From Nymphaea colorata (Eukaryota; Streptophyta; Magnoliopsida; Nymphaeales; Nymphaeaceae): a stretch of 64,000 nucleotides of DNA. Each line of letters opens with the position of its first letter. The stretch's first letter is position 1. Where the stretch lies: contig NC_045150.1 of assembly GCF_008831285.2 (NCBI RefSeq), forward strand, positions 9,312,001 through 9,376,000, written 5' to 3'. A program made the translations under genes and the position numbers. Below are positions 21,398 through 64,000 of this stretch, one piece after another. The notes under the pieces were generated by a model. The model did no database searches. It saw only the letters and a list, made by a program, of their open reading frames with translations, and had not been told where the DNA came from.

Positions 21398-24300
21398 CTA
21401 ACTCCCACATGCCATGCACTCTTCTCGGTTTTCTAAGGAACAGACCATCTGCGCCATCTTGGTCTCAAGATCATCCTCCACTGCTGGTTTATCCTGATGT
21501 GTGCATTAGGTTAAATCGTATCAGTAGAGAAATCAAAACAGGGAAATAGAGGTTAAAGAACAATATAATGATATAAATTCTACAAAGAAAATGTTATCAC
21601 CTCAAGCATAGAAGCATCTACAGTGAATTTGATTGCATCAGCTGCAGGACGGGAGCGTAGATAATACATGCCCGTTTTCAAACCCTGCCAAGATGAACAG
21701 TTGATTTGAAGATATAACTAATTACTGAAAAATGAATTTTTCACGGTTTCACCTATAACACAGCTATGAGACTGTGATTAGCAAAAACCAGTCTGATTTC
21801 AGTATGAAAATTGTATCAATAGAATGACCCAAAGCATGAACAGCATGGTAGGGCAGGTCAACTCCTTGTGGAGTTTCACAAAGAATTTAGTATTTGGCGT
21901 CCTTCAGGCATGAGGGTCATTACCAAATTACTACAGAGGAAGAAGGCATCACTTGAGACGTGTTTTAGACCTTAGATCAAGTCCCAACCAAATCATTCGT
22001 ATGGTGCTGTAATAGTAAGCTTGGCAACAATAAAAGAGGTGAGGGATGGGGGCCAGAAATAGATTTGAAAAACTCCATCATGTATACACATGAACTGATG
22101 CCAATATCAAACTAGTGGACGTACATGACACACTAATCCAGATATCGTACCGCAGACCAAGCATAGAAATGCAAGGAAGTAAGTTTCCCATAATTGGGTT
22201 GGTCCATGTGGATGTTCAGACTCTGACTCTGATCTATGTAGCACCCTCGGTCAACAGCAAGGTCCACCAGATTTTTTTGTTTGATCTCCCAAACGGTTCT
22301 GAAAAAATAACATTGAGTTTAACTACCAAACTAGTAGCTAAATAGGAGGGACGAAAAGCACATAAATCGTAGGATATGAATCTCCATACTTGTAAATTGA
22401 TCTGAGATCAGCTGGAATCTCCGGGATTTTCTGAATGGAGCCATTCTCATATATTATTTTATTCTTTAGAGAAGGAGACCAAAGACCCATTTCGGTCAAG
22501 TCATTAAGAAGATGTTTGTTAACCACCACATATTCACCACTGCAAACAATAGCAAATTATCAGACAATTCTCAGATTCAGCTGAAAGAAAGAGAGAAAGG
22601 GAAATGCCTAGAAAACATACCTCAAAACCCTTCTACTGTAGATATTGGAAGTATATGGTTCAAAACATTCATTATTTCCAAGTATCTGACTGGTAGATGC
22701 TGTGGGCATCGGAGCAACCAGAAGGGAATTCCTTAAGCCATTGTTTGCAACCATTTCTCTTAAAGCAGGCCAATCCCAACGATTAGATGGCGTTACTCCC
22801 CACATGTCAGGTTGGAAAATTCCCTGCATGAAATAGAAAAGGAATGAGATAAATATATAATAACCAAAGCAGACTAAAATGCATAAAAATGAGTGTGGAT
22901 ATACATATAGCCTCAAAAAAACTTTAACCTGTTATAAATAGGCACACTGGCTGACACTGCTGAATCTAAACTGCTTGTGCAATGTTGTGCAACTGCACGA
23001 CAGAGCATTTGGTACTCATACCTAAGTTTTCAGCTCAGTTTTCATGCCTCGGCATAAAATTCTTCTTGTTCTTAAAGGCATCCAAATAATGTGGAGGATA
23101 GAATGTGAACAACAATGAAACACAGCAGTAGACATTATGGTTCATAGACAAACCTTGCTTGCAGGACTCCCATGGTATGTCTCATAAGGGCCTTCTTTGG
23201 CAGAAAGTTCAGAAGAGGCTTTCAGAGCATTATAATAAATAGTTTCAAAAATGTCCTTGTTCAGTTGACGAGCCTAAGGCCGAAACAAAACAAATTTGAA
23301 AACCAATCAGAAAAAGACAATAACTGCATGGGCACAATAGAGCAAGTTTGGTGCAGTAACTAACCTCCTGTGAATCAAAAGGCATCCCCAACAAGATAAA
23401 AGTATCAGCCAGTCCCTGAACCCCAATACCTATTGGCCTGTGTCGCATGTTTGATGTTCTTGCAGTCTCAGTAGGATAGAAGTTAACATCAATTATCTTA
23501 TTCAAGTTTGATGTGATTACAGATGTGACCTGATCAAAAAAGAGGGGGAAAATATCATGCTCACTGAACTGATAGACAAAGAAACTGATAAAAGTCATAT
23601 GAAGACACAAACCTCAGCAAGTTTGTCAAAATCAAAATATCGATTGTATGAACCCCTGCTGCCAACCAGCTTGGATGGCTGGGAGTCTTGTGGCAGACCC
23701 TGCAGAATGCCATAAGTTCAGACAACCAAAGAAATTGCAACTGTGATGCGCAACTAGAATATTTTAGAACATGCAAGTACCTTTTCCTTAACAAAACGAG
23801 GAAGAGCAATTGATGCCAAGTTACAAACAGCAGTTTCTGTTGGACTTGAATACTCAACAATTTCAGCACACAGATTAGAAGATTTTATTGTACCCAAGTT
23901 TTGCTGGTTGCTTTTTCGATTGCACGTATCCTGCAAAAGATAGCAAGCTACATAAGGATAAAAAAGTATTAACTTAAATCAATACTTATGATTAATAAAG
24001 TTTGAGCAAATGAAGACCTTGTAAAGCATATAAGGAGTCCCAGTCTCAATTTGTGAAACAAGGATAGAGAACCAAAGCTTTTGTGCCTTCACAACTTTTT
24101 TTGCCTTTCCCTAAAATGGAAAAATAAAACCAACATGTCAAACAAAACAACATTGTTAAAAACTTAAGATTGTACATAAGTGACAATCAAAAAACTTTGT
24201 AAAGCTGGATAACTTACTTCTGTCTCGTATTTAGTATATAGAGCTTCAAATTCTTCACCCCAGCAATCAGCTAGGCCTGGAGCCTCGCTTGGACAGAAGA

Positions 24301-26558
24301 GTGACCAAGTTTCATCATCCTGGACCCTCTTCATGAAGAGGTCAGGTACCCAAAGTGCATAGAAAAGATCACGGGCTCTGTTTTCCTCCTATAGTAACCA
24401 AACATCTAGGTTCAGTCGAGCAGAATCACAAGTGCTTTATTTAATAGAATATGGACATAATACAACGAGCAAACAGCCTGGCATCCACTTGCTTGCAAAT
24501 TTAATCGAATTCATTATGTAACCATGAAATCAAAATTTCAAAAAGCAACATTTTGAAAGCATGTATCTATATGTTAAAAAGTTCAAACAGATCAGTACCA
24601 AACCCTGGTCAAATTCTCAAGTCTATTTATGTAAAACTAAAGTTGTCAAGCAAAGAAAAACAGCTTTAAAAATTCAACCAGAAACATGAATTGAAGTCTA
24701 ACAGGTACATCTAAAGCAGCGCGATGCACAAAGCACGTGATAGCAGTGAATCCTCAGTCACACTCTAAGTTGCAATTTCACATACACAAGGGGGGGGTGT
24801 GTGTGTGTGTGTATGTACAGGGCATGTTATAATAACTGCTGCAAATACCTTTCCATGATTCTTTCTCAGATCAAGAAACTCAAAGATGTCCGCATGCCAT
24901 GGTTCCAGATACACAGCAAACGCACCTATAAGATGAAGAACCATCACTTAAATTCAAAAGAACAAGATAATAAGTACAACCCAAACTGCAGGATTCAAAC
25001 ATTGAATATCTAGGAACCTCCCCAACCAAGAAATTCTAATACCATTCAGCACTTAACATCAGGAGAAAGGAAGCAAGATAATGTTTTTAGGGAGTAAAAA
25101 TGTTACCTTTCCTTTTGCCGCCCCCTTGATCAACGTAACGAGCAGTGTCATTGAACACCCTCAACATAGGAACAATCCCATTTGAAGTACCATTTGTACC
25201 ACGAATATAGCTGCCCGTTGCACGAATATTATGGACAGAAACACCAATCCCCCCCGCAGATTTGCTAATGACAGCACATTCCTTCAGTGTATCATATATG
25301 CCTTCAATGCAGTCATCTTTCATGCAGATAAGGAAGCAGCTGCTCAACTGATAGAGAAATGGCCATTAAAAATAGAAAGAAAATCGCAAGTCCAAAGGAG
25401 CAGGAAAGCATTCACAGCTTAAGCACACAAAACATACTTGAGGCCTCGGTGTTCCGGCATTGAAAAGAGTGGGCGAAGCATGGGTGAACCAGCGCTGGGA
25501 CATTAAATGGTATGTTTTCAATGCAGAATCAATGTCTTCTTTGTGGATGCCAACGGCAACCCTCATGAGCATATGCTGTGGCCGTTCAACAACCTTCCCA
25601 CCAATCTTTAGGAGATATGATCTCTCTAGGGTCTTAAACCCAAAATAATCATAATCGGAATCTCTGTCGTATATGATTTCACTATCTAGAAGAGCAGCAT
25701 TCTGAAATAAGAACGGCATTCAAACAATCAGGAAAAAGAGGCTGTCATTGTTTTCATCCAAAATTAATTTAGAATAAGCAACTTTTTTTCTGTTTCTACG
25801 TTAAGAGAAAATCACCTAAATATATGCTCTTAACTCAAGTCAATCAGAATAAGAAAAAAATTATTCAAATAGCAAAAATCACACGATGGGCCAAAAACAG
25901 AAAAACATTTATTAAAGGGAATCAGGAAATAACAACAGAAAAAATAAGATAAATGGACCTTCATAATTATCTCATAAACATCGTCTGCAATCAAAGGCGC
26001 CTTTTGCCTTGATCTCAAATTTACATGATTGTACATATCCTTGATCCTGAAACGCACAAAACAGAAAAAAGAACATCAGCCTCCATGAACAACCGAAGAA
26101 AAGTCTTGTCGGTAAAAAAAAATTGTAGATAAGCAACTGGGTAATCTCACGTTTCCGAAAAGGACTTCTTTGTATTCTTATGCAGATTTGAAACAGCAAT
26201 CCTCGCCGCGAGCTTCACAAAAGAACCACACAGATTCAGAGAAAGACAACAAGAGCAAAATCAACGGGAACATTGTACTATAAGCCTAGGGAAAACGGAA
26301 AATTCTAGTGAGACATAGAATAGGAATTACAGAGGCATAGTCAGGGTGGTTGGTGGTCATGGCAGCAGCCGTCTCAGCAGCCAATTCGTCGAGCTGGGTG
26401 GTGGTGACGCCCGTGTAGACTCCAGCGCAGACCTTCTGCGCGACGCGGACCGGATCGCAGTGCTTCTCACTGAGGCCATAGCTAAGCTTCTTGAGGCGGG
26501 CGGTGATCTTATCAAAGTGGACAGCCTCCGTGCGCCCGTCCCTCTTGATCACGTACAT
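21398..26558 (-). CDS. RNR1: Ribonucleoside-diphosphate reductase large subunit (RNR1), complete, 17 exons
   Basis: Exons (minus): 26558-26331, 26212-26151, 26046-25959, 25701-25438, 25347-25107, 24925-24849, 24388-24218, 24110-24018, 23930-23781, 23699-23613, 23529-23365, 23273-23154, 22823-22621, 22539-22390, 22298-22151, 21684-21601, 21493-21398. They sum to 2427 nt, 808 aa, close to the usual plant length, with every junction GT/AG and in phase. The enzyme reduces ribonucleoside diphosphates to deoxy forms with the small radical-bearing subunit, supplying dNTPs for replication. Visible features: N-terminal ATP cone starting [10 protein letters not shown]218 and C444 (redox pair); N427, C429 and E431 (NLCAE, thiyl radical site), landing on the same numbers as in animal and yeast R1; tyrosines of GMYYLR at about 756-757; and a C-terminal CMACGS with the shuttle cysteines C803 and C806. 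The start is the first ATG; an in-frame TTG extension to 26618 is not credible. Exon 15 has an unusual donor, gcg|gtacga. Confidence 0.96.
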
Positions 26559-26788
26559 CTTCACCGACGGAGATCGGGGACCCTTCTTCCCTGAGTAATT
26601 CCGCCGAACACTTTGCAACTGCCACAGAAAAATAGAGAGAGAGAGATCGGGAGAGAAGGATAGATGAGGATGAGGAGGCGACGGCTAATGGCGGCCAAAG
26701 AAGAAGGAAGCGCAGCGGCTCTAAACAGGCGGGAGAGAAGGTAGGCCTCCTTTTCTTTTGGAAAATTTTCCCTTCTCCCTCCTTCTTG

Positions 26789-28704: not shown

Positions 28705-31700
28705 ATGAATGACGCAGATGTCTCAAAGCAGATCCAGCAAATGGTCCGATTCATCCGCCAGGAAGCGGAGGAGAAGGCCAGCGAGATCTCCATTTCCGCC
28801 GAAGAGGTACAGGGATCTCTATTATCGTGTTTTGTCGTGAATAACGAGCCTTCTTAATGGGGTCGATCGACTTCTTTCCTTTTCGTTAAATAATCTGTAC
28901 TCTAACCGTTTTTTCTCGTCATTGGTTTGTTTTGTCTATAGATCGCCTTTTCCCGCTTACTGTTTGGGCAACGAGTGGTACTTTAATGCGACGATTATAA
29001 CAAAGTTGGTTATCTTGAGTTATACAAAAAGAAGGTTCACTGCTCATTATTACACGACTGAATTTAAAACCTTGTTAGATTGTAAGGCTTCTTTGTTAGG
29101 TGCTGCAGTAATTTTCAAGTCTTATCTTGTGCCGATGTGGAGTGGATGGTGATGTTGCATATCAGAGCATGAAAGATAGGAAAAAGAGCTTTGCATGGAA
29201 ATAGCTGAATGCATGAGGTGATAATAAAGTAGCCTGCAAGTGGTGGATGCAATACTGGATCAGAGAATTGGAGAGCATCGGCAGAATCTAGCTTCACTAG
29301 AACGAAACCAATTAGTGAGATTAGTTCAGTTGTCACTCATTGCTGAACCAACACCGTATGCTCTCAGGAAATGATATCAGTGGTTATGATCTTGCTAGCA
29401 TAGTGGAATGTGGATGTGATCAAGAAACGGTTGACTTTGCTCGTTTTGAGCTAAGTCACATAAGAGTATCTGTTTTCTTATCCTCTTAAAAGGAAAACGT
29501 CGCCACCTTCACATCCAACTAGTCCTAGCCTTAAGCACGTCTCCGTTCTAAAACGAAGAACATGAGATATGTTCCCAATCTTTTCTAAGAGTAAACTATG
29601 TTACCATATTTTGCATGACTAGTGAAACTGTTTATGACACATCATGGTCAATGGTCATGCTCTTTTTGTGATGCTCAAATGTCTAAGCGTGTGGAGCATT
29701 TCTTTTAACGAGCGAAGGACAACTGCTTTATCCGCAGAGAGATATGAGTTTGCAACCTTATGGTGAGGAACGGAAAATTTAGGTCTTAGGACAATAAATA
29801 AATGATAAAAGTCAACTCAAACGCCGTATAGGAATTTACATCTGCTTTGTGTATGTAGGGCTGCGAATGCCTAATGATCCCTATCAAAAAAAAAGAAGAA
29901 GTAAAAACCACAGATTTCCTTGTGTTTTCAATCACTTGTCTGGGGTTCAAGTCTGCCCCTTTACTAAGTATTGAAGGATTCAATTATTTAAATGTCACTT
30001 TGTAACGGGAGTTTGTTTGTAATTCTTAGATGAGAGTTCCTTTCCTACTTTTTTATGCATAATGCTCAATTGTTAATCTTACTTATTAGGGACAAAGGAA
30101 GATTCTTTCGTCCAGGCTGCAACGTGAATATACATAATATGGAGCTTTTCTATATTGTGTGGTTCTGTGTCAACTTTTCAAAATTGTCTGGGTACTTGTC
30201 ATCATTGATATGGGGCTATTGCTGTTTTACTGTGTTACAGGAATTTAATATCGAGAAATTGCAACTAGTTGAAGCTGAGAAGCGGAAAATTAGGCAAGAA
30301 TATGAAAGAAAGGAGAAACAAGTTGAAGTTCGAAAGAAAATGTAAGTGTGAAACTACTCATTTTGCATTGGTAAACTGAGTTGCTTTTTTTCCACTCAGA
30401 CTATTTGCAGCATTTGGATTGCTCTTCAAATTTTTAGTATGTATACTTAGATTTTGTAGTTCATGTAGGACTTTTCTACATTAACTTTTGTTTGGTAGAA
30501 TAAGGAAAAGTAATGTCTCGTGCTGGTGAGGAAGGAAGGAAAACACTAATCCTTGGGGTGCATGTACATTGACTTCCAAGTGCTTTGTTCAGTCAGCTCG
30601 AGCCTGCTGCTCAAGCTGCCTAAAGGCTATTAAGCTTCGATTCTTACCAGTTGATTTCAAACTAAGTATATTAATGAATAAGCTATGATCTGTTCATCAG
30701 TTAGGACCCAGAATCATGATTTTTGCTGTTCATGAACAATATAAAGAAATAAATGAGCATGTTTATATAAAAATGTGGATAACAAAAGTAACTGGCCTTC
30801 TGTATAATAGAAATGAGTAATATTCTGTTTATTTCTAGATTTGTAATGGATGAGCACAAACAAAGCATCCAATGGATTGTAATCTCCACAAATGGATGGT
30901 CATTGGCCCGCCCCAGGGGGAATTACCAATTTCACCACTTCCCAGCCCTTACTGGAAACCTGTCCTTTTTTCATACCTTCGTATATGGAACGCACCTCTG
31001 TGCCTTCTCTACTTCCTGGCTCAAGCAAGAGCCACAGTTACTGGAACTGAATCAAGGAAAGCGTGAATGTAAATGCTTTGTTTGTGCATGCACCTGAAGT
31101 CAAAACTCAAAGCTGGTATATTTTTGATCTTTTGTTGCTTGGATGTTCTAATTGGTGTAATATTGACTTTGTCTACGAAGTTTTTAAAGGATAAACTGCA
31201 ATGAGGTTGTCAGTTGTAGTAGGCAACTTTAATAATCCTATTTTCATTAAAAAATGATGCTGGTAATTTTTAATTTATTGATTTTGTTATTGCCTATTGG
31301 TGCCTCATAAGTGGTTGATTTGCAAGACATCTTGCATATGATTATTTGATCTTTGAACCGTGTTTTCTATGCAGTGAGTATTCCATGCAGTTGAATGCAT
31401 CCCGAATCAAAGTTCTGCAGGCCCAGGATGATTTGGTTAATTCCATGAAGGATGCAGCAGCAAAGGAACTCCTACGTGTGAGCCATGATGCTGCTGCCTA
31501 TGGGAACCTTTTAAAAGAACTGATTGTGCAGGTACCAATGATCGAAACTGGTTATGGTAACACTGTTGTTCTTGAGCAAGATCATTTACGCAAAAGTCTG
31601 TCATTTTTTGTAGAGCTTGCTGCGACTAAAGGAACCAGCTGTCCTGTTGCGCTGCCGTAAAGCTGATGTTGAACTGGTTGAATCTGTGTTGCCTTCAGCA

Positions 31701-33864
31701 AAGCAGGAATATGCTGAGAAAATGAAGGTCCATGCTCCTGATATTATAATTGACAGTCAAGTATATCTGCCTCCTGCACCAAGTCATCATAATGAACACG
31801 GTCCTTCCTGGTAATCTCTCACCTTATCTTGGCTTTCACCTTGGAACGTCAATATTTTTCAAATATGTTTGTTGAAGTGAAGAATTATTCACGGCACATT
31901 CATGCTGTGAAACTATCTTATCTTGGACAGTAGTCCACATTGACTTTGGTCTAGGTCAAGTCGACCTATTTTATCTCGATGTTTTTTTTAAAGCTTTTAA
32001 GCTAATATTTGCTTTTTCGACCAATTAATGTGTATTTTATCTTCAAACGGCATGGTCTGTCTGTACCTTTTATGTTCAAATAACATTGTCTGATCACTCA
32101 GGGTTGATGGGGCCAACTGGAGAGCGGCCTATGAAGCATCTTTCATGTTCTTCCAGGCACTAGTTGGTCTTTGATGACAATGTCTCTAAAACTTTCACAT
32201 GGTTCATCTAGATATTCTTCTGTTTTGAACCAGAAAAGTATTAGATTTTTCAGTTTGTTTTGCTACCTTGATGAATGAACTCTGTACCTTTTAAGGTCTC
32301 TTGAAGAGCCAGGAATTTAAGATTCTGAGAATACTGTAATATTTCTGTGGGAGAAATGTTGTGAATAACGGACCATATGAATTGATCTGCTTCAAACTTT
32401 GTTCTATTTTTTCTCAGTGAAGCTTTTTCAAATGTTGTTATTTCTATAATTGGCTACATGTGCATATTAATCAACTTTTCTCAATTTAATGGTGTGTTTG
32501 TCCAGTGCTGGCGGGGTGGTGTTGGCTTCTCGGGATGGGAAGATTGTATGCGAGAACACACTTGATGCAAGGCTTGATGTTGTATTCCGACAGAAGCTAC
32601 CAGAGGTATCTGTTCCTTTTAAATTGATTATTGTTTAGTCACACGGGTGACACATTGTTTGGATGTTAGGACATCTAGTTTTTTGATGAATGATACAAGC
32701 AATATGGGAAATATATTCAACCCGTCCTCTCGTTCCTTTTCCTCTGTTACTTTCATCTACTTTTTTTTTTCTCCCATTCTTTTCCAATTTTCTTTTTCAG
32801 AATCATCGTCTCCACCCTAAGATTGGTGAATGCTAAGGAGGGAAAAGGACTAGTCTCATTTTGGGACTGATTTTTCATATATATATATATATATGTATAA
32901 TCCAAATAATGTTAATTCTAACAAACAAGGTTCTGGTTCAAATGGAATCTTTTTGCTAAATTGATCTTATGCAGTAAGTGGAACACAATTTTAGTGCAAG
33001 TGGGAAATCCCTAGGATCAAATGGCATGATACTTCTTGTTTACAGTGAATATACGTCTGCTGTATGAAAATTTTTGAGGGAATTGGCTTTGTATTTTCCG
33101 GAATTTCTGCTCTTTTTAGGGTGCCAAACTGTGCTTCAATTTTCATCTACATAGTCACAGAACCGTTGATCTGATATTTCATTGCATATAATGTAATACT
33201 GAAATTGAGTGGCAACTAGCTCAAGTCATAAATGTTTATATAACATACAGAATCTTCTCCCCTGCTTGTCCACCCATGCGTGGAGGGTGGGTGCATATAT
33301 GTGCATGTGTGTTGTCATCCTTTTTCTCATTTTGCCTTGCATATGTAGTTCAACCGTTGTAAAGAATTAGAATATGTCCAAATTTGACAAAATGTATGTA
33401 TACCACGTTAATGTTTCTCCATCACGCTTGAACTGTAGCTTTCTTTTGTTAGACATGGTCTTGAAGACAGCATTATCTATGTTTGGTCATGCTTGCAATG
33501 AACCTTTCTTGATGTACCACAAAGAAATATACAGGGAGATAAGTTCTCATGTTGTTAGGCACCTAGAAATTCAATGCTAATCAATTGCCTCGGTAGCGGA
33601 GAATGAGCCAACAAGTCTTGTCAACCTCTTTCTGATTATTTATAAGGACTTTCACCTCTTGGAGTGTGTTGCAGTCTTCTGCTTTTTAGACCAAACATTA
33701 TTTTATATTTAGAAGGATGCGGTGTGAGCTTCCATAGCGTGGTGCTTTTGTTCTTTCTGCTAGCGAATAACTGAGGCTTATTGGGGGATAGCTATTGTCG
33801 GTTAACACTTGACTTTCTGTCTGTGCAGATACGCAGGCAGCTTTTTGCAAAAATATCCGCATGA
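28705..33864 (+). CDS. VHA-E: V-type proton ATPase subunit E, complete, 6 exons
   Basis: Exons: 28705-28806, 30241-30341, 31375-31531, 31614-31810, 32506-32605, 33829-33864; 693 nt, 230 aa, the usual length of plant subunit E. All introns are GT-AG and phases agree. Subunit E pairs with subunit G to form the peripheral stalks that hold the V1 catalytic head on the V0 membrane sector of the vacuolar/endomembrane proton pump. The protein starts MNDADVSKQIQQMVRF, has a long charged coiled coil to about residue 90 (EAEEKA..., EKLQLVEAEKRKIRQEYERK), then a globular C-terminal half with SLLRLKEPAVLLRCR, VYLPPAPSHHN and GGVVLASRDGKIVCENTLDA, ending QLFAKISA. Intron 1 is about 1.4 kb and introns 4 and 5 are 0.7 and 1.2 kb. 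No frameshift seen. This is the only VHA-E copy in the window, although both neighbours have duplicated remnants. Confidence 0.96.
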
Positions 33865-36641: not shown

Positions 36642-39600
36642 ATGGGCTGCTTCCGTCCGAGAAACCTCGCCGTGTTCAGGCAATTGCTCCTTGCGGCGGG
36701 CCTGGTTCTGGCCCTGCATGCGAAAGTTCACCACATTGATGCCAAATGCGAATTTGATGCGATCTTCAACTTCGGCGACTCCAATTCCGACACCGGTGGG
36801 TTCTACGCGGCCTTTCCGGCACAGTCGAGTCCCTGGGGGATGACGTACTTCGGGATGCCCACCGGCCGGGCGTCGGACGGGAGATTGGTAGTCGATTTCT
36901 TGGGTAAGATATTTTAGGCTCTGTTTCACAGGAAGCAGCATTCATGAAAATTTCTGCCAGCAGCCCAACAAACAAAGGGCTGTGAGTTAAAAACCATGAC
37001 AAGCGTAGCAGCTTGGCTTCATTAGTAGCCTTCTCTCGGCTCGAGCTGCATCATTGGGCTATCAATTTGGCATTCGATCCCGTGAAACCTGCCCAAGTTC
37101 ACGATTTCCAGTGTCGGTTGCATGTCCCAAAACATTGCATTTCATGAATTCGTTCACATTTCATCTGATGGTGATGCACAATATTGCAAAAAATCTTCGC
37201 AATAATGGATGTAAGATTTGGAAACACGTGATCAGATTGGCACTACCTTACCCAGTTGTATTCAATCATTTTCGGTTTCCGGTGGGTGAGAGACACCCAC
37301 CACACGTTGATTGCCGAAACCCCATCCAACTTCTTGTCGCCTTCAGGCGGCTTGCTTTTGATGTCTCGGAATGCTCTTTCTCGGAATGCTCTTTCTCTGT
37401 TATGCTTTAGCTTGTGCATTGATAACCACTCTTTTGAAACATCTAGAGGATTCAAAACAAAGACTAAGATTACTTGGTTTAACAGCTCAGGCATTAGGTT
37501 TGCCGTTCTTGAGCCCATATCTTCAAGCCCTCGGCTCAGACTTTACGCATGGAGCCAACTTCGCCACACTGGCATCAACAGTGCTCTTGCCCAACACCTC
37601 CTTATTCGTGACCGGGATCAGCCCCTTCTCTCTTGCAATCCAACGGAACCAGATGAAGGAATTCAAGGCTCGGGTCACACAGCTCCGGTTCCAAGGTAAG
37701 TTCAGATATATAAGCAGCAGTTTGTTTATGATACGGTTTCGAATGAATTTGGGCCCATTGGACTTACAATAGGATCCGTTTGTGCATGAAGTGTTAATTG
37801 AAACGATCAACGAACATGGATCCCGAGTTGATCCCGTTCAGGGTCGTTTGACATCAAGGAAGTACTGTAAGTGTCCCATGAATCTGAACAAATACTAGGG
37901 TAGATTTATGACACTTGTTTTAGTGCTGCACGAATTTGTTCCGATCTTTAAACTAAATTCACGAGACACTCACATAGTGTTTCTACTGCCAAATCTAGTC
38001 ACAGTTTACTGTTTCAATACTTAGATTTGGAATATTGGATTCAAACTATATTGGGTAGGAAATCTGAATCCGGATGGTTCTGATGACTGGCTCATCGGGT
38101 CAAATGCCATCTCGAACACAGAAATGTCCCATGTTTTTCTAGGACATGGATTTTTTTAGTTTAAGAGCACATATGGACCACTTGTCTGTAGTTGGATCAA
38201 TCGGGCCAACCTTATCATAAACTGGGTCACGTTGGTGCAGGAAGGACCCTTTGTCCATGGGTTCCAACATGGAGGTCCGAATCATCTTGGATCAAGAGCA
38301 ACCGGACCCATGTCATAGCTAGAGAGGGTAAAGGTCCACAGGAAATCATTACAGATCAGATTATAGACAAGCACTTCTTAATAGTTAATACATTAGATCT
38401 ACTTCTGACCTATTGTTTTGGATTCGAGCTCGATACTGATTTGGATCTGCCATAATCAACTGAGTGGTTAATTTGATCTGCAATTTTCCTTCTATTACAA
38501 TACTTTTCAGGCAAAGACACAAAAGGCCTTCCACCATTGAACGTGTTTGGCAAATCACTGTACACCTTCAACATCGGACAGAATGACTTTACATCAAATT
38601 TGGCAGCCATTGGAATAGAAGGAGTAAAGCAGTATCTACCTGATGTTGTTAATGAGATTGCATGGACTATCAAAGTATGTGATCCCATCTCAACTCTCGT
38701 CAATCAGATAAAGGACATGCCATGTTCATTTGTGAAAACTAAAGAGTTGTTATTCTGTTACTGTCCCGTGATCCTGCGCCAAAAAAAAAAAAATGCACAG
38801 ACTGATGAGATAATAACAGTCTCTCTCAACTACCAATTTACATATTTACATCTGCCTTTCACTTGAATTTACGGCCACGCGATTGAGCCTAGTTGTTGCA
38901 GTCATACCAACCAGACTGGGTTCGATTAGCAGCCAGATGACCCGCCGCTTTATTCAGTTGATCCTTGGGTTGCACAGGTCCTTTATGATGAAGGCGGCCG
39001 GACGTTCCTGGTGCAGAACCTGGCACCCATTGGCTGCTACCCGGCGTTCCTGGTGGAGCTGCCCCACGGCCGGTCCGACCTTGATGAGTACGGATGCATG
39101 ACCTCCTACAACGATGCGGTCTCCTATTACAACAGCTTGCTCAAGGGGAGGCTCGATCAGCTCAGGCCACAACTCCCCCAAGCCTCAGTGATCTATGTGG
39201 ACACACACACCGTCGAACTTGAGCTCTTCCGGAACCCAACCCACCACGGTAAGCCTCTAAGTCCCTCTCTATGCACAAGTAAAATGATAAATGCCGCTAA
39301 ACATCCCGTCATGGTACAGTAGGCCTGCGTCCCGACTCCCGTATGACCTCTTTCGTGTCTCACATCAGACTGTAACTTGTATTAATGGTTGGTTGCTGGA
39401 TCTTTTAAAACTCAAGATTTTTTATACGAAAAGATGAATGATAAGGGCTCCCGGTCACCAATGTATGTGAAAAAGTCCTGCACTCTCTTAATTTAAGTAC
39501 CTATTCCTGCCAGAAGTTAAAAATTAATATCGGTCTTAGAGCATCTAGTGGGCTGAGAAAGTACCCCATTAACATGGGGCAGCAAAAAGGTGGTGGTTCA

Positions 39601-40684
39601 AACATGGTAGACAGGTTGGGCTTTGTTGAGGTCGGAGGGCAACGGTCTGTTATCCTTCCACCGCTCTGTCATCCTTCCACTGCCGAGAGCGGCAGAGGTG
39701 CAGACGGTGCTCTGTAACGAGGTCTCCTCCACTCTTAAGTAATAAATATCGCACACAACCGTCTCTTCGACCGGCTGCGCTGGAACGGAATGGGCAGTCC
39801 GTCAAACGCACCTACAACCTCGCTGAACCTAACCAGAGATTGCGGTTCCACCATCTTTTGTGTGCCTTCACCTGAGTTACAACCATGCGTGACCATGGTC
39901 GGAAAGTTTGTGACCTCAAAACGCCATAATCTTATATGCTATTTGATCTTCTTAAAAAGTTTCGATACAGGACTAAAGCAGGCCTCCCCCCCTCTCATCT
40001 AACTTGTCTGGATGGACTTCAACATGGTCCATCGGTTAAGGACTAACGGAGACAGATTTTTTTTTTATCAAATATATCAAAATATTAATATATATATATA
40101 TATATAAAGCTAATTTTGTGAGGCTGGTGTGTGCGATCCTACCAGAGCAGCCACGCCATTGAGTGAGTTCAAGGGGAGACAAAAGATGAATCGTTCAGAA
40201 TTTTCATTTCTAGGGAAAAAAGGAGTCCTTGAACCATCTACTTTGAGGTATCATGTTAGATTGGAATGGATCATGGTCGGATACAGAAGATAGAGATTAA
40301 GCGTTGAGTGACAGGAGTTTCCTCAGATTTCACTCTCAGGATGATGCCAATGTTTAATCTAATTTCATTCTCCTTTTTTTTTGTTGGATTTCATGGTGGT
40401 TAACCTGTTTGTTAGGGTTGAAGTATGGAACAAGGGCGTGTTGTGGGCATGGCGGCGACCCCTATAATTTCGATCCAAGAGTTTTCTGTGGAAATACAAA
40501 GGTCATCAATGGCAGCACGGTGACGGCATCCGCCTGTTCCGATCCTCAGAACTATGTCAGTTGGGATGGAATTCACTTCTCAGAAGCAGCAAACAAGGCC
40601 ATAGCCTATGCAATCCTTAGTGGCGACTACTTCTCTCCTTCCTTCCCCATCGGGAAGCTCTGTGATCTGCAACCCATCGGCTGA
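36642..40684 (+). CDS. GDSL esterase/lipase (FXG1-like, secreted), complete, 5 exons
   Basis: Exons: 36642-36903, 37486-37695, 38511-38674, 38978-39248, 40416-40684; 1176 nt, 391 aa. A hydrophobic signal peptide (about residues 9-27, LAVFRQLLLAAGLVLAL) suggests secretion to the cell wall. SGNH/GDSL family blocks are complete: GDSNSDTGG with nucleophile S47; G110 in HGANFA; GQND with N182; and DGIH with D353 and H356. The overall pattern (AQALGLPFLSPYLQ, LLPNTSLFVTGISPFSL, SWDGIHFSEAAN) matches the plant subgroup that includes proteins annotated as alpha-L-fucosidase 3/FXG1; the true substrate is uncertain, and esterase activity is the general family role. Phases agree at each GT-AG intron. 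Intron 3 contains a tRNA-like SINE candidate close to the exon 4 acceptor. Intron 4 (about 1.2 kb) and exon 5 have a broken copy at 54.5-55.4 kb. Confidence 0.94.
38876..38950 (+). mobile_element. Possible tRNA-like SINE head in GDSL intron 3
   Basis: The words gagcctagttgttgcag (A-box-like) and gggttcgatt (B box) lie about 30 nt apart, as in tRNA-derived SINEs. The segment ends only about 30 bp before the exon 4 acceptor at 38977. No tail or target duplication identified. Confidence 0.35.
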
Positions 40685-45735: not shown

Positions 45736-45767
45736 AGAGGGATGATGGTGGCTACTCCTATCTAAGC

Positions 45768-46047: not shown

Positions 46048-46744
46048 ATGTAAGCCTTACAACTACTGTTGTGCTCAGTGGTAGACGGGGCAGCTGGGTT
46101 ATGCTTCCCTGGGGTTTTTATCTCGTGATTTCTATATCTTTTTTCTACGTGTACTCATATTGATTTTTCTGCAAAGCCTATCTCCCAGCAACCGTTTTAG
46201 CGACAGTATCATTGTTGCTTTACCATTTTACTAATTTATCCAGTTTAGTTTCCCTGGTTTAAACCTCTATAGTGCTCGGAAAAGCGTCCAATAACCGAGT
46301 GAGCAGTTCATGCGTTATGAATAAAAGAGCATGAAGGTGGTGAACTTGCGTATAAGATGGAGAAATGCGCTCAGACATTCAACGGTTGGGTTGGAAATGC
46401 TTTGAGATCAAGTGGACCATGGTTGGGGAACCTTCAACATGACAGCCCAAGGATACAAGCAAACCTTTCAAGCATGCGCTCTTAAAAGGCAAATCCCTGC
46501 CATAAAATAAAAGAGAACGTGTCGTTCCTGCTATGCGAATCAGGGTTCCGCTTGGTTTAACTTAGGGTTGTAGCAATTTGTAAACCTGGGTTTGGATGAC
46601 GAAGACAGAAATAAAATGCCTTATTTATGGTTATTTATCAATCTACAATGCAACAGGAGAAGAGTGATGCAATTACCAATTATTGATCCTAGGGATATGT
46701 TTAGAACGCAGTAAGCATGCACTCGTTGGACATTTGAATGTAAA
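46048..46744. other. Intergenic, no gene seen
   Basis: No coding or repeat structure that I can name. Ends at the start of the 3' flank shared with the RNR1 copy at 61.2 kb. Confidence 0.4.
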
Positions 46745-46976
46745 AGTTTGATTTCCTTTTTTTGTTACTGTAAGTTGGTGAACAGCAAGCTAATGAGCTC
46801 CAATTACTTGACAATTTCAAAATTGCAAGCCAAGTCTCACAGTTTACTGTATATTATCTATTTTAAACAATCTATACTTTTATTGTCGTTCCTTAAAAAA
46901 AAAACATTGTCAAAACATCATAGATTCACTAACTAACCAGTGAGAATAACCAAAGATAATCGACATACAAATACAG
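46745..46976. repeat. 3' flank shared by the two derived RNR1 copies
   Basis: From about gttactgtaagttggtgaac to the RNR1 stop, this matches 61228-61466 closely (shared gaacagcaagctaatgagct and gtgagaataaccaaagataa). The intact RNR1 at 21.4 kb has unrelated sequence beginning about ten bases past its stop codon. Confidence 0.85.
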
Positions 46977-47276
46977 CTAAGTCCCACATGTCATGCACTC
47001 TTCTTGGTTTTCTAAGGAACAAACCATCTGCGCCATCTTGGTCTCAAGATCATCATCCTCCACTGTCGGTTTATCCTGATGTGTGCATTTAGTTATTTGG
47101 TATCAGAAGAGAAATCAAAACAGGGAGATAGAGGTTAACATAGAGGTTAAAGAACAATACTATGATATAAATTATACGAAAGAAATGTTATCACCTCAAG
47201 CATAGAATCATCTACAGTGAAATAGATTGCATCGGCTGCAGGACGGGAGCATAGATAATATAACCGTTTTCAAACC
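46977..47276 (-). pseudogene. RNR1 pseudogene fragment A (last two exons)
   Basis: Counterparts of RNR1 exon 17 (47075-46977, one extra Asp codon, stop kept) and exon 16 (47276-47195, 82 instead of 84 nt). A 2-nt deletion in exon 16, where the intact gene has atacatgcccg and this copy atataaccg, shifts the frame and creates stops. Homology to intron 15 continues to 47492 and is cut by a transposon. Exons 15 to 5 are missing before the N-terminal fragments at 48.5 kb. Confidence 0.9.
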
Positions 47277-47492
47277 CTGCCAAGATGAGCAGTTGATTTG
47301 AAGATATAACTAATTACTAAAAAAATGAAATTTTCACCTATAACACAGTTATGAACAGTGATTAGCAAAAACCAGTCTGATTTCGGTATGAAACTTGTGT
47401 CAGGAGAATGACTGAAAGCATGAACAACATGGTAGGGCAGGTCAACTCATTGTGGAGTTTCACGAAGAATTTAACATTTGGAGTCCTTTAGG

Positions 47493-47935
47493 CCCGGTTT
47501 GATGGCACATAATTTTTTTGAGGGGAGATTTTTTCAAGGAAAAAAAATGCAAGGTAAGTGTACCGTAAGGAAAAATTCACTTTTTCCAATCCAAGCCATG
47601 TTTGATGGCCTAAAATTTTTTGAGAAAAAAACTTCGGTGTTTGCTGGACACAAAATTTTTTTTGCAGATTAACATGTCAAGCCAGAACAGAATGACAAAT
47701 TTTGGTCACATGGAGGAAATTTTAGTTTTTCTAGGGCTCGGCCCCAGGCCCGGTTACGGGTCAAAGAAAACCCGGTCCGGCCGGGGCCGGCCTGTTGAGG
47801 ATTGAAATTTTTTTTTGTTTTAATAATATATATTTTATTACTAAAAATTATATATTTTTTAAAAAATTTATTTCATAATTTTTAAAAAAATATTTTTTTA
47901 TAAAAACCGGACCGGGCCTGCCCGAGCTGACTCTC
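47493..47935. mobile_element. Truncated hAT-like element in RNR1 fragment A intron 15
   Basis: The left end cccggtttgatggcacataa matches the left end of the element at 61918 and is inserted at the same intron position, after cctttagg. The interior has a GC-rich then AT-rich part (47740-47920) also seen in the other copy. No right terminal repeat is found, so this copy is truncated or its end is lost. Confidence 0.7.
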
Positions 47936-48464
47936 AAAAATTTTCTTAGTTAGGGATTATGTCGATCGCAATCAGGGGAACAACATCATCGACGTCATCT
48001 TTGCATCCTGTGTCAGAGCGGAATGATGGAAATGACATCACCAGCGACACCGTCGGAGAATGGATAAGGGCAATGGTGAAGGTTATGCTGTGATGGTGGG
48101 TTTTTCCCATCTTAGGCTATCAGGGAAGCTTACTGGCAGAAAATGAATGAATTTTACGGTGTGGTCGTTAGAGCCACCCACATCAGCATCGATGCCCTCA
48201 CATACAACAAAAATGGGGATTTGTGATGGAGGTTTTGCCCTAGTTCGATGCTGTGTTTAATTGAAGACGAATAAGAATAAATCTATTAATGGTCGTCAGA
48301 ATGGAGAGAACAAACCAAATCATGAAGCGAGAGGGAGAGGTTTCGACGGAAGAACAATCACACTGCCGCAGCATGCCTTGCTGACAAAAGAAGGAAAACA
48401 GCAATCCTAAACAAACTCATATCGGTAAAAAAACAAATATATATAAGCATCTAGATCATCTCAC
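47936..48464. other. Unassigned sequence between RNR1 fragments
   Basis: No gene or recognisable repeat. It replaces what should be RNR1 exons 15 to 3 if fragments A and B come from one duplicated gene. Confidence 0.4.
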
Positions 48465-48850
48465 ATTTCCGAAAAGGACTTCTTCGTATTCTTAATCCAG
48501 ATTTGAAACAGCAATCCTACCCGCAAACTTCACAAGCTTCACAGAAGAACAAGAATCAGAGAAACAAAAAATTTTTTTGAGAAAAATCCACCGGATCATT
48601 GTACTATAAACCCAGGTAAAACGGAAAATTCTATGGAGACATAGAATCGGAATTACCAAGGCATAGTCAGGGTGGTTGGTGGTCATGGCAGCTGCCATCT
48701 CAGGGTGGTGACGCCGGTGCAGACCTTCTGCGCGGCGCAGATGGGATCGCAGCGCTTGTCACTGAGGCCATAGCGAAGCTTCTTCAAGTTAGTGGTGATC
48801 TTATCAAAGTGGACAGCCTCATTGGGCCCATCCCTCTTGATCACGTACAT
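48465..48850 (-). pseudogene. RNR1 pseudogene fragment B (exons 1-2)
   Basis: The exon 1 counterpart starts with a preserved ATG at 48850 (MYVIKRDG, then NEAVHFDKI). It lacks about 40 bp around the [11 protein letters not shown] region, which shifts the frame. The exon 2 counterpart (from about 48530 to 48465) has an in-frame stop where the intact gene reads NLHKN. Intron 1 homology is kept between them. Sequence upstream of exon 1 follows the intact gene only to about 48970, then changes to sequence shared with fragment C. Confidence 0.9.
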
Positions 48851-48969
48851 TTTGGCCGACGGAGATTGGGGAATTCCCAGAGCAATTCAACCGAACACTT
48901 TGCAACTGCCACACAGAAAGCGAGAGATCTGGAGGGAAGGATAGATAAAGACAAGGATGAGGAGGTGAT

Positions 48970-49336
48970 GGCATATGCAGAGCTGCTATGAAGGTTTCAT
49001 GGACCAAACATTGTAGCATGTACTTTAGAAGTTAATTATGTGCATGCCATTTACAGATGCCATTAACAAACGCTCAAAGCAGAAATTTAAAGCTATGTCA
49101 CTTAGTGCAGGTGCCAGCGATACATCTCAAAAAATTTTGGTGTGGTGGTGCGATGATGATTATTATTATTAATTTTTTATTATTATTATATTCTTTTATG
49201 GTTTTACCTTCAAAGTTCAAAATATTTTTTTTTAAATATAACAAATTTAAGAATAGATAGTCAGCATAGTTCACTTTTAGTCATAAATGGACAAATGCAC
49301 TTGCACTTTTAGACATGCTCTCTTGCACTTTTAGAC
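48970..49336. other. Spacer between RNR1 fragments B and C
   Basis: About 48970-49080 matches 50350-50455 (shared gaaggtttcatggaccaaac-type sequence). The rest is AT-rich with a (TTA)n-like run near 49160. Nothing coding. Confidence 0.5.
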
Positions 49337-50233
49337 ATGCTCTCTTTAGGGTCTTAAACCCCATATAATAATAATCAGAATCTCTGTCGTATATGATTTC
49401 ACGGTAGCTGCATTCTGAAATAAGAATGAAATTCAGACAATCAGGAAACGAAGGCTGCAGTTGTTTCCATCGAAAATTAATTTAGAATAAGCAATTTTTT
49501 TTTGTTTCTACGACTAGAGAAAATCACATAAATATATATTCTCAACTCAAGTGAATCAGAATAAGAAAAAATTTACTCAAATAACAAAAGTCGCACGATG
49601 GGCCGAGACAGATTGAAGGAAACTAGGATATGACAACAGAAAAAAATAAGATAAAGGGACCTTCATAATTATCTCATAAACATCGTCTGCAACCAAAGAA
49701 GCCTTTTGCCCTCATCTCGAATTTACATGATTGTACATATCCTTGACCCTAAAACACACAAAAAAGAAAACGAGAAAAAAAAGAACACGAGCCTCCATGA
49801 ACAACCGAACAAACTCGTATCGATAAAAAAAACAAATGTATATAAGCATCTAGTTAATCTCACATTTCCGAAAATGACTTGTATGAAACAACAATCCTAC
49901 GCTCTAGCTTCACAGAAGAACAAGACAGAATCAGACAAACAAAAAAAATAAAATTTGAGAAAAATCCATAGAGTGATTGTACTATAAACCATAGAATGGG
50001 AATTACCAAGGCATAGTCAGGGTGGTTGGTGGTCATGGCAGCTGCCGTCTCAGCAACCATTGGTCGAGTTGGGTGGTGGTGACGTTGGTGTAGACTCCAG
50101 TGCAGACCTTCTGTTCGTCACGGACGGGATCGCAGTGCTTCTCGCTGAGGCCATAGCTAAGCTTCTTCAAGCTAGCAGTGATCTTATCAAAGTGAACAGC
50201 CTCCTTACGCCTGTCCCTCTTGATCATGTAGAT
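49337..50233 (-). pseudogene. RNR1 pseudogene fragment C (exons 1-3 and start of exon 4)
   Basis: Counterparts are exon 1 (50233-50007), exon 2 (49907-49864, 44 instead of 62 nt), exon 3 (49748-49661, full length) and the first part of exon 4 (49414 down to about 49337). The ATG is changed to ATC (complement gat at 50231-50233). A single-base deletion in exon 1 turns LDELAAE into LDQWLLR, out of frame, and exon 2 has an 18-nt deletion. The fragment stops inside exon 4. Intron sequences are still recognisable, so this is a DNA-level duplicate and not a processed copy. Confidence 0.9.
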
Positions 50234-53470: not shown

Positions 53471-53530
53471 AGCAGGAAAGGAATGTTATCTAATTTTGGC
53501 TGTTCCAGTGACATTTATCTTCATTGTAAG

Positions 53531-54227: not shown

Positions 54228-54520
54228 GCATTCCGTAGACATCCGTGATTCCCATGTTTAAGACTCACACACATAACCTCTTGAACATCCCTTCCGCTTC
54301 AATTGAATTAAAATATTGTTATTTTCCAAGGAACCGGTAATTGTTTTTTCAAGGAATCAAATGCTTTACTTATTTTCTTAAACGTAAAATATAAGTTGTG
54401 CAACTTCAAGGCAACAGTTTCTTTTTTAGGTATGCTTATTTTGCAATTAGGTGCTGGACTCGATTTCAACCTGTTTGTTGACCTTAAACCTGAATAAAGA
54501 TTAGATTCGGCTCCATTAAA
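54228..54520. repeat. Diverged copy of the RNR1-VHA-E intergenic block (27836-28095)
   Basis: Starts ccgtagacatccgtgattcc and matches 27836 onward in order and orientation (gtttcaattgaatta-like and caattaggtgctsgactcga segments), with small insertions. It lies directly before the broken GDSL copy, with no trace of VHA-E between. Confidence 0.8.
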
Positions 54521-54524
54521 CATG

Positions 54525-55365
54525 TAGTAAACCTGCGTCTCATATGACCTCTTCCCAGCAAGAGTGAAGAGGTGGAAGGGAGCAAAAAGGTGGTGGTTCG
54601 CACATGGTAGGCGGGTTGGGCAACGGTCTGTTATCATTCCACTGCCGAGAGCGGGAGATGTACGCTGCTCTGTGAAACCAGCCTCACGCGGTCCCCTCCA
54701 CTCTAAGTAACATCATGCCCATCCCTTCGACCGGGGGCGCTGAAACAACTCCTGGCTTGGAGAACAGGGCAGTCCGTCAAATGCATCTTCAACCTCGTCG
54801 AACCTGACCAGCATGGGGTCCCACCAACTCGTGTGCCCTCACTCGAGTTACAACCGTGCGTGACCACGGTCGGCGGACTACAGGCCCTGGCCACAAGTTT
54901 ATATGTTATTTCTTTTTCTTACAAACTTTCGATACAGGACTAAAGTTGGCCCTCTCACCCTATCAGTTTTTTTATTTATAGGGAAAAAACGAGTCCCTGA
55001 ACCATCTGCTTTGAGGTATTATGTTAGATTGGCATGGTCGTAACTTGTTTGTTAGGGTTGAAGTATGGAACAAGGGCGTGTTGTGGGCATGGCGGCGACC
55101 CCCTATAATTTCGATCCAAGAGTTTTCTGTGGAAATACAAAGGTCATCAATGGCAGCACGGTGACGGCATCCGCCTGTTCCGATCCTCAGAACTATGTCA
55201 GTTGGGATGGGATTCACTTCTCGGAAGCAGCAAACGAGGCCATAGCCTATGCAATCCTTAGTGGCGATTACTTCTCTCCTTCCTTCCCCATTGGGAAGCT
55301 CTGTGATCTGCAACCCATGGGCTGATCTAGTTTCAGAAAAGAATCGGATGACGAAAAGACATGAT
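54525..55365 (+). pseudogene. GDSL esterase pseudogene fragment (intron 4 and exon 5)
   Basis: Positions 54533-55055 parallel GDSL intron 4 with gaps, for example gcaaaaaggtggtggttc at 54580 against 39582. Positions 55056-55325 parallel exon 5 including the acceptor and stop. One extra C (gcgaccccctat against gcgacccctat) shifts the frame right after GHGGDP and gives an immediate stop, so the DGIH block cannot be read in phase from the exon start. Exons 1-4 are absent. Confidence 0.9.
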
Positions 55366-61188: not shown

Positions 61189-61227
61189 CTTAATATCAAA
61201 TCCAACTCACAACAAACTCCATTTTAA

Positions 61228-61466
61228 AAAGCTTGATTTCTTTTTTTTCGTTACTGTAAATTGGTGAACAGCAAGCTAATGAGCTACAATTACTTGACAG
61301 TTTCAAAAATGCAAGCCAAGTCTCGCAGTTTACTGTATATTCTCTATTTTAAACTATCTATAGTTTTTTCGTCCTTTACACACACAAAAAAAAAAGAGCA
61401 TTGTTAAAACATCATAAATTCACCAACCAGTGAGAATAACCAAAGATAATCGGCATACAAATACAT
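61228..61466. repeat. 3' flank shared with RNR1 fragment A
   Basis: Direct counterpart of 46745-46976, in the same orientation, about 14.5 kb away. Confidence 0.85.
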
Positions 61467-64000
61467 CTAACTCCCACATGCCATGCACTCTTCTCGGTTT
61501 TCTAAGGAACAAACCATCTGCGCCATCTTGGTCTCAAGATCATCATCCTCCACTGCTGGTTTATCCTGATGTGTGCATTAAGTTATTTGGTGTCAGTAGA
61601 GAAATTGAAACAGGGAAATAGAGGCTAAAGTACAATATAATGACATAAATTATACAAAGAAAATGTCGTCACCTCAAGCATAGAGGCATCTACAGTGAAT
61701 TTGATTGCATCGGCCGCAGGACGGCAGCGTAGATAATGCATGCCTGTTTTCAAACCCTGCCAAGATGAACAGTTGATTACCAGTGATTAGCAAAAACCAG
61801 TCTGATTTCAGTATGAAACTTGTATCAAGAGAATGACAGCAAGCATGAACAGCATGGCAGGGCAGGTCAACTCCTTGTGGAGTTTCACAAAGAATTTAGC
61901 ATTTGGAGTCATTTAGGCCCCGTTTGATGGCACATAATTTTTTTGAGTGGAGATTTTTTCAAGGAAAAAAAATGCAAGGGAAGTGTACGGTCAGAAAAAT
62001 TCACTTTTCCCAAATCCCTGTTTGGACACGAAATTTTTTTTGCAGATTAACATGTCAAGTGGAAAGAAACCCCAAGCTGCAGAAGGAGGGAAGATTGGAG
62101 CTCGTCGTCCATTGCTAGCCAACTTTGGCAACACAATGGCAAATTTTGGCCACATAGTAAAAAGTTGGAGGAAAGATGATCCATTTTTCACCTCACTAAG
62201 AGTTTTTTCCAACAACGCTAATAGGCGGTCAGTTTTTCTTACAGCCGGGTCCCCGGGCTGGGCCCTCCACTTGTTGAGGGCCCGAAAACAGCAAAAAACC
62301 TGGCCCAGCCCATTAAGGATTAAAAAATAATTTTTTTGTTTTAATGATATATATTTTATTACTAAAATTATATTTCATATTTAAAAAATTTATTTTATAA
62401 ATTTTAAAAAATATTATTTTATTAAAACCGAGCCAGGCCTAACAGGCAAAAAGAAATGAACCAAAGGGTCCGACTTTTTTCCAAGGTAAAGTTACCCTCA
62501 TCGGGTGATTTTGGCAGGGATAAATTCCCTGCGTTTGATGTCGTCGTGGAAAGCCGTACAAAAAAGTAAATTTTATTTGATGCACAGTAAAATCCATGCT
62601 CATCAAACGGGCCTTAGGGATGCGTGCCATTACTAAAGAAGGCATCATTTGACCCGTGTTTTAGACCTGAGATCAAGTAAAGCTTGGCAACAATAAAAGA
62701 GGTGAGGGATGGAGGCGAGAAATAGATTTGAAAAGCTCCATCATGTATCCACATGCACTGATGCCAATATCAAACCAATGAACGTACATGACTCGCTAAT
62801 CCAGATATCTTACCTTAGACCAAGCATAGAAATGCAAAGAAGTAAGTTTCCCAAAATTAGGTTGGTCCATGTAGATGTTCAGACTCTGACTCTGATCTAT
62901 GTAGCACCCTCGGTCAATAGCAAGGTCCACCAGAATTTTTTGTTTGATCTCCCAAACGGTTCTGAAAAAATAACATCGAGTTTAACTACCAAAATAGAAG
63001 CTAAATAGGTGGGACGAGAAACACGTAAATAGTAGGATATGAATCTCCATACTTGTAAATTGATCTGAGATCAGCTGGAATCTCTGGGATTTTCTGAATG
63101 GAGCCATTCTCATATATTATTTTGTTCTTTAGAGAAGGAGACCAAAGACCCATTTCCGTCAAATCATTGAGAAGATGTTTGTTAACCACCACATATTCAC
63201 CACTGCAAACAATAGCAATTATCAGACAATTCTCAGATTCAGCTGAAAGAATGAGAGAAAGGGAAATGCCTAGAAAACAAACCTCAAAACCCTTCTACTG
63301 TAGATATTGGAAGTATACGGTTCTGGTAGATGCTGTGGGCATCAGAGCAACCAGAAGGGAATTCCTTAAGCCCTTGTTTGCAACCATTTCTCTTAAAGCA
63401 GGCCAATCCCACCGATTAGAAGGAGTTACTCCCCACATGTCAGGTTGGAAAATTCCCTGCATGAAATAGAAAAGGAAGGAGATAAATATATAGTAACCAA
63501 AGCATATTAAAATGCATAAAAATGAGTGATGATATACATATAGCCTCAGAGCAACTTCAACTTATTATAAACAGGCACACTGGCTGACATTCTGCTGAAT
63601 CTAAACTGCTTATGCATTGTTGTGCAAATGCACGACAGAGCATTTGGCCCTCATGCCTAAGTTTTCATGTCTCAGCATATAATTCTTGTTCTTAAAGGCA
63701 TCCAAATATTGTGGAGGATAGAATGTGAACAATAATGAAACGCAGCAGTGGACATTACGGTTCATAGACAAACCTTGCTTGCCGGACTCCCATGGTATGT
63801 CTCATAAGGGCCTTCTTTGGCAGAAAGTTCAGAAGAGGCTTTCAGAGCATTATAATAAATAGTTTCAAAAATGTCCTTGTTCAGTTGACGAGCCTAAGGC
63901 AGAAACAAAACAAATTTGAAGTCCAATCAGAAAAAATACAATAGCTGCAGGGCACAATAGAGCTAGTTTGGTGCAGTAACTAACCTCCTGTGAATCAAAA
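61467..64000 (-). pseudogene. RNR1 copy D (exons 11-17, runs off window), broken by a 29-bp deletion
   Basis: Counterparts of RNR1 exons: 17 (61565-61467, one extra Asp codon), 16 (61756-61673), 15 (62961-62814), 14 (63202-63053), 13 (63456-63283), 12 (63893-63774) and part of 11 (from 63985 past the window end). Splice sites are kept, and exons 12, 14, 15, 16 and 17 are open in the expected phase. Exon 13 lacks 29 bp between 63322 and 63323, the stretch coding for most of [10 protein letters not shown], which removes conserved residues and shifts the frame. Other changes are GMYYLRSR to GMHYLRCR, losing one of the paired tyrosines, and NIHMD to NIYMD. At the exon 15 donor this copy reads aag|gtaag, nearer consensus than the intact gene. 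It is a young pseudogene, or at best a gene coding a damaged protein; its 5' part lies outside the window. Confidence 0.92.
61918..62611. mobile_element. hAT-like non-autonomous element in RNR1 copy D intron 15, about 694 bp
   Basis: The ends ccccgtttgatgg and catcaaacggg are inverted repeats. It interrupts sequence that is continuous in the intact RNR1 intron 15 (gtccttcaggcatgagg at about 21899). Flanks catttagg on the left and ccttagg on the right fit an 8-bp target duplication of ccttcagg with later changes. The interior has a GC-rich part (62245-62310) and an AT-rich part. The same insertion is seen, truncated, at 47493. Confidence 0.8.

Follow-up and report, generated by a model that had tools for sequence, protein, structure and literature searches.

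The window examined here is a stretch of 64,000 nucleotides of the Nymphaea colorata genome (C13:9312001-9376000). It carries intact genes for the large subunit of ribonucleotide reductase (RNR1; 21398..26558, minus strand), for subunit E of the V-ATPase (VHA-E; 28705..33864, plus strand) and for a GDSL esterase/lipase (36642..40684, plus strand), and intron 4 of the last of these hosts a gene for 7SL, the RNA of the signal recognition particle (SRP), in antisense orientation. To the right of this block lie broken copies of it. Very probably, tandem amplification of the block gave rise to four or more units, followed by ordinary decay in which VHA-E was lost by deletion and the fate of the 7SL gene differed from unit to unit.

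The identity of the three protein families was established by Pfam and PDB searches. The frame of RNR1 exon 4 matches Pfam Ribonuc_red_lgN, exon 5 matches large-chain structures of ribonucleotide reductase with E-values from 1.9e-40 (1zyz) to 3e-38 (3hnc), and VHA-E matches the V-type ATPase subunit E chain 7uw9_G (E=1.6e-26). The GT-AG junctions of this copy, called copy A, were inspected by eye, and some exon ends were moved by a few bases for phase; GDSL exon 1 ends in the donor TGG|gtaaga and joins exon 2 in frame. With 17, six and five open coding exons, respectively, the RNR1(-)/VHA-E(+)/GDSL(+) order given as intact in an initial annotation of the window holds.

Layout of the tandem array

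Tandem segmental duplication with pseudogenisation is familiar from plant genomics, and the initial annotation had read the sequence to the right of GDSL as such DNA-level copies. Its matches, on one strand and in order, were reproduced by self-BLAST of the window: 21378-21909 with 46958-47493 and 61458-61918 at the RNR1 end; 22017-23380 with 62680-64000 (A with C) and 25613-26690 with 49333-50361 (A with B) further into RNR1; 27856-28110 with 54232-54521 in the intergenic block between RNR1 and VHA-E; and 39659-39997 with 54621-54965 and 40379-40734 with 55019-55373 in the GDSL part. At E<=1e-3, 20 of 20 dinucleotide shuffles of the 45-64 kb interval gave no match. The array search covered 114 kb, i.e., the window, the next 40 kb (where window coordinates are continued beyond 64000) and the preceding 10 kb. 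It delimited four tandem units rather than the three that had been described: A (21.38-46.96 kb), B (46.96-61.46 kb), C (61.46-72.86 kb) and D (72.87-84.9 kb), which start at 21378, 46958, ~61458 and ~72869, the array ending at ~84.9 kb. Introns are retained in the copies, and the intergenic block occurs once in each of the four units. Parts of the sequence that follows GDSL in A (41.5-46.96 kb) are found again in C at 69.5-72.86 kb, one of them inverted, and this recurrence confirms the right part of the unit; in B, the last 0.2 kb of it alone was found, the remainder being other sequence, in which a reverse-transcriptase match lies below threshold.

Beyond the RNR1 stop codon, a common 0.2-kb flank is found in B, C and D (46742..46957 left of RNR1 copy B, 61227..61457 left of copy C; the B/C repeat had been noticed in the initial annotation and was returned by self-BLAST as 46742~61227). 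This flank does not stand beside A, which differs from ~9-20 nt after the stop. Beside A lies sequence (20483-21062, with a 97-bp piece inverted) that is shared with the 3' flank of another RNR1 gene. This gene is on contig C11; 17 of its 17 exons were recovered, and the matched stretches are free of stops. Therefore, unit A, which keeps all three protein genes, is the native copy at the left end, and B, C and D show at their starts the kind of joint that tandem duplication predicts. The RNR1 pieces of the array are closer to one another than to the C11 outgroup in four of four comparisons (smallest margins 0.123 vs 0.127 and 0.137 vs 0.142), and the array is thus younger than the split from C11. 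Distances in the intergenic block, 0.10-0.11 among B, C and D and 0.18 to A, tend to favour descent of B, C and D from one ancestor. In 40 kb around the C11 gene, 25 kb of that on its 5' side, there was no match to a VHA-E or GDSL exon at E<=1e-3 and none to 7SL at E<=0.01.

The interval of 46.7-104 kb was also painted, each segment being assigned by its best match to unit A. This gave 44 segments, 43 of them in the orientation of A; with one trivial self-match set aside, 42 of 43 agree. Mixed orientation, which the initial annotation had named as the mark of scattered insertions, is thus not what the fragments display. An origin of the 47-55 kb fragments by scattered insertion, with no tandem unit involved, could draw on the retroelement traces in the spacer, namely a zf-RVT match at 53.2 kb over the Pfam cut-off and matches to RVT_1 (56.1 kb) and a hAT-like element (53.4 kb), both under their cut-offs. 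However, it is almost certainly wrong, since not only the orientation but, in B and C, also the order is kept, and the common junction is present at every internal unit start. In D the order is partly rearranged, with an RNR1 piece repeated past the block. Tandem duplication at the DNA level, followed by collinear decay, is therefore supported. The array resembles plain tandem segmental duplication in its head-to-tail units, its unequal crossing-over joint, its deletions and transposon traces and its one intact copy; the difference lies in the nested Pol III RNA gene, whose retention or loss did not follow that of its host.

RNR1 pseudogene copy B (46977..50233, minus strand) consists of exons 17, 16, part of 4, 3 and 1, with stops and a frameshift, and an extra exon-1 piece lies at 48.66-48.85 kb. 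The further copy that had been reported from 61.5 kb is present (copy C; 61470..64000 and on to ~67.2 kb outside the window, minus strand) but broken: exon 13 has a 29-nt deletion, and the first half of exon 1 was not found by tblastn. The dN/dS of copy C to A over six exons, 12-17, is 0.12, and that of copy B is 0.43 over five exon pieces, with exons 2 and 5-15, absent or unaligned in B, left out. Because the A-C value is this low despite the lesions, RNR1 C may have been broken late or converted by A. At the end of exon 15, A reads TCTGCG|gtacg (22154) and the broken C reads TCTAAG|gtaag (62817); the Ala of A there corresponds to Gln in 3hnc and to Lys in 1zyz, two of the matched structures. 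In D, exons 6 and 12-15 were not found by tblastn. This copy contains a run of 0.53-0.63-kb repeats in which exon-1/intron-1 sequence is fused to other unit sequence; tblastn gave eight exon-1 matches, and six of the repeat units, when compared, were 86-91% alike. The stretch at 73.7-78.7 kb (L009/L010), with about eight copies of the ~0.6-kb RNR1-derived repeat, forms a small satellite-like array from a broken gene. Elsewhere in the assembly, an RNR1-like gene on a 22.9-kb contig (L037, C439:2777-5085) has exon matches that abut without introns and is 81% identical over one exon; it is possibly a contaminant.

VHA-E and the missing interval

The VHA-E gene of unit A is the only copy found in the array. 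When exons 1-5 were used as tblastn queries (the 12-codon exon 6 was not among them), no second match at E<=0.01 was obtained in the 114 kb, and the same was found for GDSL exons 1-4. The loss of VHA-E from the derived units, as initially annotated, is thereby confirmed, and the remnants of VHA-E and GDSL that might have lain past 64 kb did not appear in this search for VHA-E exons 1-5 and GDSL exons 1-4. In the whole genome (408 Mb in 783 contigs), the VHA-E exon-4 query has two matches only, one here and one at C9:2754476. The C9 gene, with similarity in and around the exons, looks like an older paralog.

The homology of unit B to A jumps from 28110 to ~39577 with ~50-65 unassigned bases, and that of unit C from 27980 to 39412 with 46 unassigned bases. 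An interval of ~11.4 kb that spans VHA-E and GDSL exons 1-4 is absent from both. Two histories fit this: a single deletion between 28110 and 39412 in a shared ancestor, with later trimming on different sides, or two overlapping deletions. The initial annotation had hinted at gene dosage, i.e., that the additional units selectively lost VHA-E owing to the harm done by a V-ATPase subunit out of balance. None of the five queried VHA-E exons was found in B, C or D, and the single other genomic match of exon 4, on C9, would also agree with such selection. However, VHA-E was not lost alone: GDSL exons 1-4 and all the intervening sequence vanish with it in one interval, and RNR1, which likewise encodes a subunit, is broken in all three derived units. 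The dosage reason is therefore unnecessary and was rejected as very improbable; a large deletion would suffice, without selection on VHA-E.

Exon 5 of GDSL persists in unit B as a remnant (55058..55325, plus strand) that equals A at 261 of 267 aligned bases (98%) and is frameshifted by a 1-nt insertion. Among the 16 genome-wide rows for this exon, only A and B lie above 55% identity. Because of the 98% identity and a dS between A and B of 0.07, compared to 0.22 for the RNR1 pieces, late conversion or late loss at exon 5 of B is possible.

The 7SL gene in GDSL intron 4

The initial annotation had recognized a conserved stretch of GDSL intron 4 in B. The homology is real, but a Rfam search showed the stretch to be largely a 7SL gene, antisense to GDSL and belonging to the plant SRP RNA family RF01855 (curated cut-off 105 bits). 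Copy A (39586..39903, minus strand) is degenerate and scores 71.7 bits (E=7.3e-18), under the cut-off; parts of its apical domain including helix 8 are lost, and it has a short internal duplication. Copy B (54586..54874, minus strand) is the best preserved in the array, with 155.5 bits, and is without ~19-20 nt of the 3' strand of helix 5. In C, the gene is deleted and scraps remain between the flanks. The likeness to RF01855 lies in the full-length match, the positions of the upstream sequence element (USE) and TATA box, and the T-run that follows the 3' end of both A and B; the differences are that A scores under the cut-off and that B misses part of helix 5.

According to passages of PMC9845283, plant Pol III snRNA genes have a USE near -70 and a TATA box near -30, and parts of PMC6765143 mention USE, TATA box and terminator for plant telomerase RNA genes. 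The USE of 7SL A (39963..39973, minus strand; GTCCTGTATCG) lies at -69, and that of B (54930..54940, minus strand) lies at -66 with a TATA-like box closer to the gene. An 8/11 match to the published consensus is weak alone, since 313 of 2000 random equal-length stretches reach at least 8. Upstream sequences were compared for 17 of the 20 genomic 7SL matches. The 14-base motif TTTAGTCCTGTATC was found ~70 bases upstream in eight of eight reference copies and in A and B, together with a TATA-like box near -30, and is missing from the remaining seven of the 17. A 7SL copy with this motif would be a DNA-level gene rather than a retrocopy, because the upstream promoter is present. The USE occurs in a second exact copy at 69.24 kb in unit C, where no 7SL match follows it. 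Weak miRNA matches were dropped as they fell under their cut-offs.

At least 20 7SL matches were found in the genome, a lower bound from 27 scored candidates out of 2152, and 17 of them are above the cut-off. The best nine score 180-213 bits, and B is tenth of 20. The stretches retrieved around the remaining 7SL loci yielded no RNR1, VHA-E or GDSL exon (E<=1e-3), whereas A and B sit in GDSL intron 4 or its remnant. The eight references were chosen for high score and full length, two of them being 99% identical tandem copies. Not taken as references were A, B, L015, L016, L018, L019, the partial C2/C15 copies L020 and L021 and the three matches outside the upstream comparison, namely one more tandem copy on C4 (the third) and two weak ones on C2; L017 was used for comparison only. 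L015, L016, L018 and L019 (on C5, C3, C5 and C14) are near-identical matches preceded by sequence that also resembles 7SL, which would fit a dispersal of rearranged copies. L017 (C11:14619051-14619346) is a promoterless copy close to B, with a 3' end that resembles the other 7SL type, and is possibly a chimeric retrocopy. Because this promoterless copy groups with B (FastTree support 0.81) and begins at the first base of the RNA, it faintly suggests that the B lineage was once transcribed.

Polarized by the outgroup L022=L025 over 220 columns, the changes since the A-B split number 31 in A only and nine in B only (p=0.0007), distributed between A and B as 6:0 in the Alu region, 7:4 in the 5' arm, 16:2 in the apical region and 2:3 in the 3' arm. 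Where A and B differ, the Rfam consensus letter stands in B at 20 positions, in A at 11 and in neither at 11. At 180 columns that are invariant in the eight references, B has nine mismatches, and the type II references gave 11/191 and 15/195 when left out in turn; B is gapped at nine of these 180 columns, compared to none in each of the eight leave-one-out controls. Of 123 consensus pairs, 87 are standard in B and 99-102 in three references; B keeps 14 of 15 pairs in the Alu domain and 14 of 17 in helix 8, and helix 5 is struck by the deletion. Raw folding of B by itself pointed to a dead RNA, and comparison with the genomic 7SL copies narrowed this to one main lesion. On these comparisons, 7SL B would have been kept longer than A and is now probably disabled by the helix-5 deletion.

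It may be asked whether B works today and so explains the persistence of the remnant in unit B. Its score over the Rfam cut-off, the retained USE and TATA-like box, the preserved Alu-domain and helix-8 pairs and a mismatch load similar to that of two type II references would all be compatible with a working RNA. The folding z of B is ~0, and reference L014 (179.7 bits) is also near zero (-0.46); that of the damaged A is -2. Present-day function nevertheless appears improbable in view of the gapped invariant columns, which no control showed, the missing nucleotides of helix 5, the poor SRP-like fold with its z near zero and the rank of B under nine copies of higher score. A split of jobs after duplication, in which A would have kept the protein genes while its 7SL decayed, and B would have lost the protein genes and kept a free-standing 7SL, possibly working despite the helix-5 deletion, is conceivable though doubtful.

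Further repeats were observed in and near the array. A 294-bp tandem duplication, ~99% identical, lies downstream of GDSL (43409-43998), and a 313-bp tandem repeat of 4.8 copies at 83.4-84.9 kb in unit D (L010) is related to 35262-35636 between VHA-E and GDSL. A separate tandem duplication in the window (10400-13912 and 14650-18213, 83% identical) contains a purine-permease-like gene, both copies of which hold a long open frame matching Pfam PUNUT.

A proposed history and its place among nested genes

The tandem amplification with ordinary decay would have proceeded as follows. The starting unit would have begun ~10-20 nt beyond the stop codon of RNR1, ended at ~46.96 kb and contained RNR1, the intergenic block, VHA-E and GDSL with the antisense 7SL gene in intron 4. 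Unequal recombination would have amplified it in tandem into at least four units. VHA-E and most of GDSL would then have been removed by a deletion in a forerunner of B, C and D, or by two deletions that overlap, with no selection on VHA-E involved. 7SL B may have remained constrained for some of the time that followed the death of its host, the helix-5 deletion coming later, and insertions and further deletions would have completed the remaining decay.

Several observations weigh against this history or parts of it. The internal order of D is rearranged, and the deletion endpoints of B and C differ, so that a single shared deletion is not proved. In the intergenic block, too, with C=D as reference, A-only changes exceed B-only changes by 12 to 3, while in two RNR1 pieces B-specific changes exceed A-specific ones, 14 to 7 and 27 to 16. 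If the apical region, in which A is difficult to align, is excluded, the 7SL polarity becomes 15 to 7 (p=0.13). The two 7SL copies are identical at 218 of 263 positions, with nine gap tracts, which is no lower divergence than that of introns (82-88% identity in four stretches). The SRP-like fold of B lies 32 kcal/mol above its own minimum when enforced and 22 when unenforced, compared to 6-8 for three references.

That duplicated nested pairs can lose either host or guest is already known. The LRRTM/alpha-catenin pairs, as described in passages of PMC3933685, have lost one or the other partner after duplication. The array shares with them a duplicated nested pair with an antisense intronic guest, of which the host was lost in one place and the guest in another. 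The guests described there are protein-coding, in vertebrates and attributed to inferred whole-genome duplications; here, the guest is a 7SL RNA gene, in a plant, in tandem units, and the surviving guest looks damaged. The literature was searched for introns of GDSL or other plant genes that contain a 7SL gene, for copies of SRP RNA genes in plants and for reciprocal nested-gene loss; among the matches listed, no such published case was found, although one may exist in print. The array thus makes a modest addition, a 7SL case in plant tandem units.

For the annotation of such loci, what appears as a relic of GDSL intron 4 is better labelled a 7SL gene or pseudogene, and the loss of VHA-E can be explained without dosage. 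Seen as a series, with 7SL wrecked in A, almost preserved in B and deleted in C, the units display the fate of a nested guest as the copies of its host die, and a fragment that resembles an old intron can persist because of a hidden RNA gene.

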